NCBI RefSeq assembly: GCF_000429025.1
Contig: NZ_KE386834.1
Coordinates: forward strand, 460,891-524,890
From: Actinospineispora spinosispora DSM 44797
Lineage (GTDB): Bacteria; Actinomycetota; Actinomycetes; Mycobacteriales; Pseudonocardiaceae
Direction of reading: 5' to 3'
DNA: 64,000 bases
A program made the translations under genes and the position numbers. The notes beneath the pieces are model-generated. The model was not told where the DNA came from and did no database searches. It worked only from the letters and a program-made list of their open reading frames with translations. Numbering within the stretch: the stretch's first letter is position 1; each line of letters opens with the position of its first letter. Shown here piece after piece: positions 9,041 through 12,956 of the stretch.

Positions 9041-9094
9041 ACTCAGGATACGAGTGAATGTGCTTACCATTAACCTGGAAGCTAATTAACCAGG
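9041..9094. promoter_or_regulatory. HxlR/ArsR divergent promoter with two dyads
   Basis: ACTC-N7-GAGT at 9041-9055 lies next to the HxlR start. TTAACC repeats 16 bp apart (9070 and 9086) and CCTGG...CCAGG (9074-9094) lie next to the ArsR start. The A+T-rich 55 nt stand out in this G+C-rich window. One dyad per divergent regulator is the simplest reading. Confidence 0.45.
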
Positions 9095-9104
9095 TGGTGA
9101 ACCG

Positions 9105-9428
9105 GTGACGACCACGGACCAACTTAGCGCCACGTTCGCGGCGCTCGCCGACCCGACGCGGCGCGCGATCCTCGCCAGGCTCATCGGCGGTGAGGCCACG
9201 GTCACCGAGATCGCCGAGCCGTTCGAGATGAGCCTGCCCGCGGTCTCGAAGCACCTGGGCGTGCTGGAACGTGCCGGGTTGATCACCCGGGGGCGCAGCG
9301 CGCAGTGGCGTCCGTGCAGGTTGACCGCCGAACCGCTGGCCGAGGCCACCAGCTGGTTGTCCAGCTACCGGCGGTTCTGGGAAGGCGGCTTCGACCGTCT
9401 CGACGAACTGGTGCGTGAGGATGACTGA
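9105..9428 (+). CDS. ArsR-family regulator
   Basis: A 107-residue winged-helix repressor: AALADPTRRAILARLIGGEATVTEIAEPFEMSLPAVSKHLGVLERAGLI is the canonical ArsR core. It has no ELCVCDL metal-binding motif, so it belongs to the metal-independent group usually coupled with an AHSA1/START protein. GTG 9105 is the only usable start after the stop upstream. It overlaps the AHSA1 gene by 8 nt, the standard two-gene arrangement, and probably represses its own operon. Confidence 0.92.
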   Translation: MTTTDQLSATFAALADPTRRAILARLIGGEATVTEIAEPFEMSLPAVSKHLGVLERAGLITRGRSAQWRPCRLTAEPLAEATSWLSSYRRFWEGGFDRLDELVREDD

Positions 9429-9873
9429 GCCGGAGACGGGTCACGAGCTGGTGATCACCCGAGTGTTCGATGCGCCGAAGGACCGGGTGTACCGGGCCTG
9501 GACCGATCCGGAGCGTGCCGCCCGCTGGTGGGGTCCGAGGGGTTGCACCGCGCCGAGCGAGGGCATCACGATGGACGTGCGCCCCGGCGGACGCTGGCGG
9601 ATCGCGATGTACGAGCAGGACGGCACCGAACACCTCATGCGCGGGGTGTACCACCGGGTGGAGGAACCCGAGCTGCTGATCTTCAGCTTCGCCTGGGAGG
9701 ACACCGACGGCACGGTCGGCGAGCTGACCATGGTGACGATCCAGTTGCTGGAGCGGGACGGCAAGACCGAGATGGTCTTCCGGCAGACCGGGCTCACGTC
9801 GCGGCGCGAGCGCGACAGCCACCACGACGGTTGGAGCAGCGCATTCGAATGTCTCGACGAGTTCGCGGGCTGA
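9421..9873 (+). CDS. SRPBCC / AHSA1-domain protein
   Basis: A 150-residue Activator-of-Hsp90-like START-fold protein: VITRVFDAPKDRVYRAWTDPERAARWWGPRG near the N-terminus and DGWSSAFECLDEF at the C-terminus are typical. It is partnered with the preceding ArsR regulator. The ligand is unknown. A GTG two codons upstream (9415) is an alternative start; the ATG at 9421 gives the usual ATGACTGA overlap. Confidence 0.9.
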   Translation: MTEPETGHELVITRVFDAPKDRVYRAWTDPERAARWWGPRGCTAPSEGITMDVRPGGRWRIAMYEQDGTEHLMRGVYHRVEEPELLIFSFAWEDTDGTVGELTMVTIQLLERDGKTEMVFRQTGLTSRRERDSHHDGWSSAFECLDEFAG

Positions 9874-9877
9874 CGGC

Positions 9878-12172
9878 GTGAGGGACCTCGTCTCGGTGGA
9901 GCCCGGTCCGCGCCGGCTGCTCGTGGTGAGCGCCACGCTGGGCGAGCGGTACGACGCCGCCGCCTCGGCGCTCGAGGAGCGGGCACGGCGGCTGTGGCCG
10001 GACTGCGAGATCCGCCGGGTGGACATGCTGGCGGCACTCGGTGGTGTGGTGGGCCGGCTGGTCGAGCGCCGGCCGTGGCTCGCGGAGCTGCCCGGCGGCG
10101 TCGTGTCGGCCGTCGCGGGACTGGCGTTGGCGCCGACCGTCGCCGGCTTCCGGCCCGATCTGGTGGTGTCGACCTATCCGCTGGGTGCCCGGGGCACGGG
10201 ATGGCTGCGTCGACGCGGACGGTTGAGTGCGCCGACCACCGCGCTGCTGCCCGGGTTCGCGCCGCACCCGTCCCAGGCCCATCCGCAGATCGACCAGCAC
10301 TACGTGGCAGGCGAACCGAGCCTGCGCGCGTTGTGGGACGCCAGGCCCGAGGTGCGGGGCGCGGTCGGGGCGCCACCGGTGATGGCCGCGTTCCAGCCGT
10401 CCGACCGGACAGCGGCCCGCCGCGCGCTCGACCTCCCGGCGGACGGTCCGGTGGTGGTGATCGCGGCGGGGGCACGGTCGCCCGAGTCGCTGGACAGGGC
10501 GGTGAACGCGACGCTGGTCGCGCACCGGAGCGTGTGGGTGGTGGTCGCGTGCGGTCGCGACGAGACGCTGCGGTCTCGGTGGGCGGCCAGGGACCGCGTC
10601 GTGGCGCTGGGGTGGACCGACCGGATGCCTCGCCTGCTGGCCGCCGCCGACATGGTCATCACCGACGCGGGGTCGGCGACCGCGCGGGAAGCGCAGGCCA
10701 GCGGCCGTGCGGTCCTGTGTTTCGAGCCGGCACCGGGCCAGGGCGTCGCCGATGCGCTGATGCTGCAGCGCGCCGGGCTGGGCCGGGTCTGTCCCGACGC
10801 GCTCACCCTCACCGCGACGCTGCACGAGCTGCTGTCCGACGAGCTGCGCCTGGCGGGACTGGAACGTGCGATCGCCGGGCGCGCCTCGGCAGCGGACTTC
10901 GACGCCGAGGTGGCCGGGATGCCGTTGCTGCCCCGACCGTTGACCAGCCGTCCGCTGGACGGAGCCGAGGCGGTGTTCCTCGACGCCGAGGCTGCGGGGC
11001 AGTGGGGCGCCGTGGTCATGCTCGGCGAGAGCGGTGGCGCCTCGGACCCGGAGCACGTCGCCGCCGTACTACGGGATCGGCTCGCCGCCCGGTCCGACAG
11101 CCTGGCGCTGCTGCGCCGCACACTCGTGACCAGACCGGGGCGACGCGCCCGCTGGGTCGACAACCAGCTGCCCGACCCCTCCACGCAGGTGAGCGCGCGA
11201 GCCGTCGACCAGGCTTCGTTCGCGGCGATCCGGGACTTCTTCGCCGAGCGCCCGCCGCTCGACCGTCCGCCGTGGCGGGTACAGGTTCTGCGCGGGCGGG
11301 TCGGGGGAACGGGGCGCACCGCGATCCTGATCTCGCTGCACCACGCGCTCGGTGACGAACGCGCGCTCACCGCGACGGTGTCGGCGCTGCTCGCCGACGA
11401 CCCCGCGCCGAACCTGCGTCCGGTGCGTGACCTGCCCGGCAGGCTGGTCCCGGCGACCCGTCGGATCGCCGGGCTGGTGACGGGGTGGCGTGAGCTGGCG
11501 ACCGCCGCCCGGACGGGTCCGTCGGCGACGGCCGTCGGGGTGCGACGGTATGCGCTGGCGACGCTGCCCGCGCACGAGGTGCGGGCGGTGGCGCGGAAAC
11601 TGCGGACGAACAGCGGCGCGGTACTGCTCGGGGTTCTCGCCGAGGCCCTGTGCGGCCACAAGGTGCCTGCCGCCGCACCTCACGGCTGGCTGCGCACCTC
11701 GGTCGCCTCGGCGACGCTGGACCTGCCGGTGGCCTCGATGGACCCGATCGAACGGATCGCGCTGGTGACCGAGGCGCTGGCCGAGAGCAGTGGCTGGGGC
11801 CGCTCCTCGGCGTCGCGGCTCGTGGTCCGCGCGATCGGCAGGCTCCCGGCGGGCCTTCGAGCCGAGGCGGCGCGACGGCTCCACGACGCGCGGTCCGTCG
11901 GGCTGATCGCCTCGGTGCCACCGAGCAGACGGCGTGCACTGCGCGTCCTGGGCGTGCCGGTGAGCACGATCGTGCCGGTCCTACCGCTCACCGGCGGTGC
12001 CGGTCTCGCGGTCGGGTTTCTCAGCTGGGGTGACACGGTCGGCGTCGGGGTGACCTCGGATGCGGCCGTGTACCCGGACGCCGAGGGACTCGCGGACGCG
12101 ATCGGTCGGGTGTTCGACGAGGTCGCGGCACGGGCCGACGCGCTGGGCGCGGTGCTGTCGCTCTCCGGCTGA
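9878..12172 (+). CDS. Glycosyltransferase - WS/DGAT acyltransferase fusion
   Basis: A 764-residue protein with two unrelated enzyme domains. Residues about 13-340 resemble the MGDG-synthase/GT28 type glycosyltransferases: an N-terminal LLVVSATLGERYDAAA acceptor domain, then DMVITDAGSATAREAQASG and APGQGVADA, where the nucleotide-sugar site lies. Residues about 360-760 match the wax-ester synthase/diacylglycerol acyltransferase family: LISLHHALGDERA holds the catalytic HHxxxD (His488, His489, Asp493), although the usual following Gly is Glu. The C-terminal VLGVPVSTIVPVLPLTGGAGLAV corresponds to the DUF1298 block. The protein could glycosylate and acylate one lipid. It follows AHSA1 by 4 nt. 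A GTG at 9896 is an alternative start. Confidence 0.8.
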   Translation: MRDLVSVEPGPRRLLVVSATLGERYDAAASALEERARRLWPDCEIRRVDMLAALGGVVGRLVERRPWLAELPGGVVSAVAGLALAPTVAGFRPDLVVSTYPLGARGTGWLRRRGRLSAPTTALLPGFAPHPSQAHPQIDQHYVAGEPSLRALWDARPEVRGAVGAPPVMAAFQPSDRTAARRALDLPADGPVVVIAAGARSPESLDRAVNATLVAHRSVWVVVACGRDETLRSRWAARDRVVALGWTDRMPRLLAAADMVITDAGSATAREAQASGRAVLCFEPAPGQGVADALMLQRAGLGRVCPDALTLTATLHELLSDELRLAGLERAIAGRASAADFDAEVAGMPLLPRPLTSRPLDGAEAVFLDAEAAGQWGAVVMLGESGGASDPEHVAAVLRDRLAARSDSLALLRRTLVTRPGRRARWVDNQLPDPSTQVSARAVDQASFAAIRDFFAERPPLDRPPWRVQVLRGRVGGTGRTAILISLHHALGDERALTATVSALLADDPAPNLRPVRDLPGRLVPATRRIAGLVTGWRELATAARTGPSATAVGVRRYALATLPAHEVRAVARKLRTNSGAVLLGVLAEALCGHKVPAAAPHGWLRTSVASATLDLPVASMDPIERIALVTEALAESSGWGRSSASRLVVRAIGRLPAGLRAEAARRLHDARSVGLIASVPPSRRRALRVLGVPVSTIVPVLPLTGGAGLAVGFLSWGDTVGVGVTSDAAVYPDAEGLADAIGRVFDEVAARADALGAVLSLSG

Positions 12173-12173
12173 G

Positions 12174-12956
12174 CTACGCGCCCTGGAACGGGATCTTGCC
12201 GATCACCTTCGTGCCGTTCTCCAGGAAGGTCGTGACACCGTGCTGCATGTCGGCCGTCTCGAACAGCGGGGTGGCGACGTCGAGTATCAGGCGGTCCGCC
12301 GCGCGCATCCCGCCGTCCAGGTAACCGCGCACGAGCGCTTTCCCAGCACCGAGCGCCCGCGTCGGCCCGGCCGCGTAGTTGCGGGCGAGCTTCTCGGTGA
12401 ACGTGGTGAGCTCGTCGTCCGGGACGACATGGTTGACGATGTTCCACTCGGCGAACTGCGCGGCGCTGTACTGGGCGCCGTCGAACACGATCTGGCGGGC
12501 ACGCGCGGCGCCCGCCCGCTCGGCGAGGCGCTGGGCGCCGCCGAGAAGTGTCGTCGTGCCGATGTGCCGTTCGACCTGGGCGAACCGGGCCGACTCGGCG
12601 GCGACGATGATGTCGGCGAACAGCACCGTCTCGAGGCCGGCCGCGAGGCACAGTCCCTGCGCGGCGGCCACGACCGGGATCGGCAGGTCCTCGATCCGCT
12701 GGAACGCCGGGAGCGCACGGGCGAACATCGCGCGCGCCCCCGCGTTGCTCACGCCCTTGAAGATCGAGACGTCCGCCCCGCCCATGAAGTGCGGGCCCTC
12801 GGCGCGGATGAGCAGCGCCCGGATCGGCGCGCTGCTCGCCTCGTTCACCGCGGCCTCGAGGTCGGTGATCATCTCGACGGACATGAGGTTGAGCGGCGGG
12901 TTGGAGAGCGTGATCGTGCCCAGGGCCGCATCGGTCTCGAACCGCACTGTCGTCAT
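12174..12956 (-). CDS. Enoyl-CoA hydratase/isomerase family protein
   Basis: A 260-residue crotonase-fold protein. The oxyanion-hole segments are ALLIRAEGPHFMGGADVSIF and VAAAQGLCLAAGLETVLFADIIVAAE. The first catalytic Glu is kept in QVERHIGTTTLLGGAQRL, but the position of the second catalytic Glu of hydratases is Gln (ARQIVFDG). It may therefore be an isomerase or hydrolase rather than a hydratase. GAGGAG lies 7 nt before the ATG. It converges on the fusion gene with a 1-nt gap. Confidence 0.87.
   Translation of the reverse strand: MTTVRFETDAALGTITLSNPPLNLMSVEMITDLEAAVNEASSAPIRALLIRAEGPHFMGGADVSIFKGVSNAGARAMFARALPAFQRIEDLPIPVVAAAQGLCLAAGLETVLFADIIVAAESARFAQVERHIGTTTLLGGAQRLAERAGAARARQIVFDGAQYSAAQFAEWNIVNHVVPDDELTTFTEKLARNYAAGPTRALGAGKALVRGYLDGGMRAADRLILDVATPLFETADMQHGVTTFLENGTKVIGKIPFQGA

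Follow-up and report, generated by a model that had tools for sequence, protein, structure and literature searches.

A reading frame that joins a lipid glycosyltransferase to an acyltransferase raises the question of which lipid the two halves would modify together, and whether the copy at hand is still equipped to do so. We examined such a gene in a DNA stretch of 64,000 nucleotides (the window), following up a sequence-only reading that had described one 764-residue frame in which one half resembles GT28/MGDG synthases and the other is of WS/DGAT type. ORF reading and Pfam analysis confirmed this composition, and the 764-codon frame contains no internal stop (Table 1).

Table 1. Coordinates in the window of the fusion gene, its parts and its neighbours
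Feature	Position	Strand	Basis
ArsR-type regulator gene, upstream of fusion	9105..9428	+	HTH_20/HTH_5; overlaps AHSA1/SRPBCC gene
AHSA1/SRPBCC protein gene	9415..9873	+	AHSA1 match; 4 bases before fusion gene
GT28-like/WS-DGAT-like fusion gene, 764 aa, GTG start	9878..12172	+	ORF and Pfam; homologous to fused genes in relatives
Glycosyltransferase half, residues 1-345	9878..10912	+	MGDG_synth and Glyco_tran_28_C above cut-off; PDB relatives 9wde, 4wyi
GERYD replacing GxGH loop	9941..9955	+	G.GH[NH] in 46/46 aligned relatives
Altered donor-site region TDAGSATAREA...PGQGVADA	10658..10756	+	GGATxxE in 46/46 aligned relatives; E271 retained
WS/DGAT acyltransferase half, residues 346-764	10913..12169	+	WS_DGAT_C 45.3 bits, WS_DGAT_cat 29.7 bits
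HHALGD (HHxxxD), residues 488-493, then E where relatives have G	11339..11356	+	HHxxxDG in 46/46 aligned relatives
Junction of in-frame deletion removing GNxT segment of acyltransferase half	11702..11707	+	Alignment; GNxT in 44/46 aligned relatives
Enoyl-CoA hydratase gene, downstream of fusion	12174..12956	-	ECH_1 match

A single frame with two enzyme halves

Pfam matches in the window protein comprised MGDG_synth at residues 83-145 (29 bits, cut-off 25), Glyco_tran_28_C at residues 193-321 (24.5 bits, cut-off 22) and WS_DGAT_C at residues 609-748 (45.3 bits, cut-off 20.7). The last agrees with the DUF1298-like C-terminus proposed earlier, as we take WS_DGAT_C to be the former DUF1298. WS_DGAT_cat scored 29.7 bits against a cut-off of 23.6 in a whole-genome scan and was unlisted in the Pfam run on the window protein. 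Across Pfam and NCBIfam, the glycosyltransferase (GT) half matched MGDG_synth, GT28- and GT1-type models only, with no GT2-type match.

A missed frameshift around codons 340-370, suggested previously as a possible source of the joint, is unlikely because third-position G+C varies little along the frame (0.82-0.93 across twelve blocks of 60 codons) and the fused relatives read through the joint in one frame. G+C at the three codon positions is 0.79/0.59/0.89 over the gene as a whole, and the third-position value falls inside the range of neighbour genes. That a sequencing error joined two genes is thus vanishingly improbable, given that dozens of genomes, named Actinopolyspora records among them, read through the same joint in frame.

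Structure prediction was less informative, as the models built from five sequences were poor (mean pLDDT of 52.3 and 51.8). Foldseek placed WS/DGAT structures first for both models, one of the window protein and one of a relative, the best fold matches including PDB 6chj and 7nxg. MGD1 (4x1t) came in at rank 31 with the window model; with the model of the relative, the best 50 included neither MGD1 nor any GT28 chain. We take these modelled folds as agreement only.

The fusion family and the hopanoid cluster

Our searches covered 62 genomes of the same genus, 297 of the same family and 200 across the order. Single-frame fusions were many in the same-genus and same-family searches, and matches spanning both halves occurred in 17 of the 46 genera sampled in the host family. 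The order-wide search added fusions in three other families (f3, f5 and f15; genomes G371, G337 and G493), those of G450 and G475 appearing as a pair of neighbouring matches within open frames of equal length; a DNA-pattern search returned four loci, three of them from Actinopolyspora. The earlier suggestion that no standard family has this domain order holds for profile models, with no full-length model of GT28-WS/DGAT order among the Pfam or NCBIfam matches, but not for genomes, since the order is common in the host family. No paper on such a fusion was among the literature matches listed, which cover subscription journals only thinly and do not prove absence from print. The novelty is the fusion family, not the window copy, whose closest fused relative (G002, same-genus search of 62 genomes) is 52% identical.

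Hopanoids are bacterial sterol-like lipids, and the genes around the fusion in relatives point to them. HpnC, HpnE and HpnH (NCBIfam, above cut-off) and the hopanoid cyclase SHC (N and C SQHop_cyclase models of Pfam) are accompanied by an IspH-like protein (TIGR00216, above cut-off), a polyprenyl synthase, a VC0807-family membrane protein, a DMT transporter and an SDR. An HpnG-like phosphorylase scored 78.4 bits, below the model cut-off of 187.1, and its frame was joined with that of IspH by the simple gene caller. We examined 62 loci, in 51 of which (window included) GT and acyltransferase (AT) stand in line. Among these 51, SHC was in view in 44, HpnH in 40, at least one of SHC, HpnH, HpnE and HpnG in 46, DMT in 47 and SDR in 47. 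The five in-line loci with no hopanoid gene in view are the window, L143 (a short contig) and L146, L152 and L153, where SHC lies 52, 21 and 27 kb away, respectively, on the same contig. In the loci of other families (L138-L142), SHC was present in 5/5 and HpnH in 4/5, the L139 stretch stopping short of the HpnH place. The sequences thus place the window gene in a GT28-WS/DGAT fusion family which, in Pseudonocardiaceae and some relatives, forms part of the hopanoid biosynthesis cluster. A predicted hopanoid cluster is mentioned for Kutzneria in PMC4210621.

Several frequent cluster neighbours deserve mention in their own right. SDR (e.g. L074:6713-7621) and VC0807 (e.g. L074:5285-6112) genes recur, neither with an assigned role in hopanoid synthesis, and in 21 of 51 loci the fusion is flanked by another, divergent GT28-type gene (L083, L085-L087, L091, L105-L119, L121); 20 of these loci belong to the window's genus and one to genus g42. 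In PMC12583986, conversion of ribosylhopane to bacteriohopanetetrol is a step with no assigned enzyme; as a guess, the cluster SDR might serve it.

Co-occurrence with SHC was counted across 334 genomes, which are phylogenetically linked, so that the counts are not independent. Both fusion and SHC were found in 103, the fusion only in three (the host genome G000, G145 and G194), SHC only in 37 and neither in 191. Hence SHC is present in 103/106 fusion genomes versus 37/228 genomes lacking the fusion. Here SHC presence means E of 1e-50 or better (G089, at 2.7e-40, and weaker matches count as lacking SHC), and eight fusions in fragments or broken matches are counted as fusions. On the same contig, 93 of 97 fusion-SHC pairs are no more than 10 kb apart. 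Within the window's genus (62 genomes), 25 carry both, one the fusion only (G000), one SHC only (G047, whose contig shows no fusion within the 15 kb read, L145) and 35 neither. In g15 (four genomes) and g42 (five genomes), the fusion carriers are the SHC carriers and the other sampled members have neither, which favours repeated joint gain or loss. The fusion-only status of G194 and G145 goes with a contig end in the cluster (L144) and a short contig (L143), respectively; G000 alone cannot be attributed to a contig end.

We consider it probable that the family glycosylates and acylates a hopanoid, and that the window copy is an orphan, most likely non-glycosylating, which is decaying or repurposed. 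In the proposed mechanism, the GT-B half would glycosylate a hopanoid, either bacteriohopanetetrol or a related product of SHC, HpnH and HpnG; the HHxxxDG half would draw on acyl-CoA to attach a fatty acyl group to that sugar or to the side chain; and the neighbouring DMT-type membrane protein may carry the product across the membrane. Sequential glycosylation and acylation of one lipid, as first proposed, is still the most natural reading for the family, but is unsupported for the window copy because its family motifs are altered and SHC was not found in its genome. Because of the gene context, a hopanoid is the probable lipid rather than the trehalose- or glycerol-based acceptor initially suggested, which we rejected as first choice when no supporting context was found. 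The cluster could fit another isoprenoid too.

The family might instead make an ordinary acyl glycolipid of the diacylglycerol or trehalose type, sharing the hopanoid cluster since both products serve the membrane. WS/DGAT enzymes take diacylglycerol and long alcohols as substrates, and the nearest solved glycosyltransferases are named for diacylglycerol. These sequence relatives of the GT half are the GT28 lipid enzymes diacylglycerol beta-glucosyltransferase (9wde) and MGD1 (4wyi, 4x1t), whose chains, in contrast to the fusion in its hopanoid cluster, are not joined to an acyltransferase. Bacterial WS/DGAT acyltransferases (6chj, 7nxg) likewise share HHxxxDG and the WS_DGAT_cat and WS_DGAT_C profiles with the fusion relatives, whereas the fusion AT is a C-terminal half and diverged (WS_DGAT_cat 77.8 bits in G002, 29.7 in the window copy). 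Against an ordinary acyl glycolipid, the fusion occurs in 103/140 SHC genomes versus 3/194 lacking SHC, and the two are jointly present or absent inside genera g1, g15 and g42; we regard this alternative as improbable relative to hopanoid glycosylation and acylation.

HpnI belongs to the GT2 family. According to the accessible portion of PMC12583986, HpnI puts GlcNAc on bacteriohopanetetrol, opening the HpnI-HpnK-HpnJ route to bacteriohopanetetrol cyclitol ether. That route resembles the one proposed for the fusion in being encoded by a hopanoid cluster and starting with a sugar on bacteriohopanetetrol; it differs in that no acyltransferase is named for it in that portion of PMC12583986, and the fusion GT matches GT28-type models. 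Acylated hopanoids are on record from other phyla: N-acylglucosaminyl-bacteriohopanetetrol from Alicyclobacillus (PMC8537080) and mono- and diacyl-BHT, bacteriohopanetetrol esterified once or twice, in Hypericibacter (PMC12583986). The sections of both sources open to us do not name the forming enzyme, and we infer a link to these compounds as what the fusion could make. Hopanoid derivatives are widely used bacterial biomarkers (PMC12583986). By tracking the hopanoid cyclase across 17 genera, the fusion becomes a concrete candidate enzyme for acylated hopanoids.

Variation of the front domain

Genomes with SHC and no counted fusion offered a further view of the family. Thirty of the 37 belong to two genera, g24 (11) and g26 (19). 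The remainder include G243, with an AT fragment near SHC (in the L181-L183 group of loci, which also covers G222 and G071), G222 and G071, where the contig ends inside the cluster, and G135 and G152, which have SHC and no other hpn genes.

In g24, the AT stands in the hopanoid cluster behind a short in-frame stretch resembling the GT start, at all seven loci where an AT was seen (L136, L148, L164-L168, with masked bases in L166); SHC was present in L169-L172 with no AT within the stretch read. The stub fell below the MGDG_synth cut-off (E 0.08), matched the GT weakly in tblastn (53 bits, L148) and is too short for the donor-binding part, and the acyltransferase behind it has HHxxxD. In g26, the AT follows a PAP2 domain in the hopanoid cluster in 10 of 11 loci read (PAP2_3-WS/DGAT at L134:4822-6879, L137, L151, L173-L177, L179 and L180; PF14378 at 162.5 bits in L134, the one locus run against Pfam), and G150 has a GT elsewhere, next to a DMT gene (L135). 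The g26 AT may be a replacement and not the same gene, because it is only 32-33% identical to the fusion AT (three g26 genomes, order-wide search).

That an AT stays at the cluster even where the front domain has shrunk or differs points to acylation being the core step. We give roughly even chances to a modular scheme of hopanoid decoration in Pseudonocardiaceae and some relatives, in which the WS/DGAT half would acylate, an interchangeable front (GT28, worn stub or PAP2) would set the head group, and DMT would move the product. If correct, this would amount to a route to acylated (glyco)hopanoids distinct from HpnI-HpnK-HpnJ.

The window copy outside the cluster

Alignment with 46 relatives revealed how far the window copy has departed from its family. 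The alignment omits L016 and L027 (both interrupted by a single in-frame stop), L060 (a near-copy of L058), L024 (short start), L022 (G016, score equal to L021) and the partial loci L030-L040; L046 was retained with its single stop written as X, and L061 equals L072 in sequence, leaving at most 45 distinct proteins. The window protein retains 63/93 near-invariant residues of the GT half (68%) and 53/77 of the AT half (69%), whereas every other row retains at least 87%, the minima being 81/92 for GT (L029) and 67/77 for AT (L064, L069).

These losses include the family motifs. The loop G.GH[NH], found in 46/46 aligned relatives, reads GERYD in the window copy. In an intact relative this GxGH loop, whose His is presumably catalytic, aligns with GGGH of MGD1 and also with GNGH of diacylglycerol glucosyltransferase, a match not significant by itself; MGD1 shares both loop and donor region with the intact fusion, while the window copy lacks GxGH. 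The donor motif GGATxxE, likewise in 46/46, is represented by GSAT, so that the degenerate donor site named beforehand as evidence against a working enzyme is largely what the GT half displays. The HHxxxD of residues 488-493, reported earlier as intact, is indeed present, but the Gly that follows it in 46/46 relatives is Glu, and the segment carrying GNxT before the LP motif (44/46 of the same aligned relatives on which this criterion was defined) is deleted. HHxxxD, E271 and PGQ are retained. The protein as a whole has lost family motifs, with HHxxxD intact; sugar transfer has probably been lost, and acyl transfer appears doubtful.

Window copy and G002 copy were sisters in a tree of 38 rows (support 100/99), in which long rows are hard to place; 12 further alignment rows had been dropped as redundant and three added from other families, with L141 and L142 absent. 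The end branch of the window copy (1.2) is the longest of the 38, compared with 0.3 for its sister. Unique replacements numbered 129-167 in the window lineage versus 47-58 in G002 over six outgroups (47-56 over five of them), or 2.4 to 3.4 times the sister, whereas unique fourfold silent changes were about equal (19-27 versus 19-24, four outgroups). With outgroup L070, silent changes were 35 versus 12, rising as much as replacements, and the ratio of first- and second- to third-position changes did not separate the two lineages. Among relatives, L016, L027 and L046 each have one in-frame stop within the matched stretch, from assembly error or decay.

SHC, the sole pathway marker searched in the host genome, gave 0 PF13249 matches (10 candidates scored; completeness 100, contamination estimate 7.41). 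The neighbours of the window copy are unrelated genes, and GT and AT were the only reference genes matched in the 64-kb window, with no hopanoid genes (tblastn, E up to 1e-8, above 45 bits). The window copy would matter chiefly as a natural case of an enzyme outside its own pathway and, if our reading is true, shows the fate of a fusion enzyme where that pathway is absent.

Lying outside the cluster and evolving fast, with changes in GT loop and donor motif and with damage to the acyltransferase around a preserved HHxxxD, the window copy would be either decaying without its pathway or kept for a changed role, perhaps in acyl transfer or binding. That it is a pseudogene in progress which has not yet met a stop has somewhat less than an even chance: the missing SHC, the orphan position, the motif loss and the replacement excess, with silent changes about equal for four of five outgroups, all suit decay. 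In neutral simulations, a stop-free frame remained in 12-45% of runs up to 120 changes (40-45% at 60, 12-24% at 120), fairly often, so that an open frame by itself says little about function. However, the base changes in excess of the sister, by subtraction of lineage counts, are about 145-235, and at 170-230 changes only 2-16% of runs stayed open (5-16% at 170, 2-7% at 230); the frame is also unbroken despite 17 gap runs relative to the sister (protein alignment, ends included). Being open with coding-like G+C, the gene is not a plain pseudogene, and the protein was likely under some constraint through much of its history.

It is possible, though rather unlikely, that the window copy still functions, as an enzyme put to a new use, with a GT half that is structural or uses another donor and an AT half acting on a non-hopanoid lipid under ArsR/AHSA1 regulation. 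The open frame, third-position G+C within the neighbours' range, tight spacing to the AHSA1 gene and retained HHxxxD, E271 and PGQ would fit such a role; the motifs missing from either half, GNxT and the Gly of HHxxxDG among them, and retention of near-invariant residues so far below that of each of the other 46 rows do not. Our preferred reading of the window copy, an orphan most likely without glycosylation, accommodates either outcome.

Queried with the G002 fusion, the host genome returned the window copy, one separate GT and WS/DGAT-type stretches elsewhere. The separate GT (L102) adjoins a DMT gene; this arrangement, with a DMT-type gene after a GT28-type one and hopanoid genes nowhere in view, was observed at L102:9678-11714, L120 and L135. 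In the window, the ArsR-type regulator gene probably shares a transcript with the fusion, and the ArsR-AHSA1-fusion segment (9090-12173) stands between an HxlR gene and the enoyl-CoA hydratase gene. In the one congener compared, G060 (L156), stretches 82% identical to HxlR and 64% identical to enoyl-CoA hydratase lie 99 bases apart in the same order, which fits an insertion of the segment in the window's lineage or its loss in G060.
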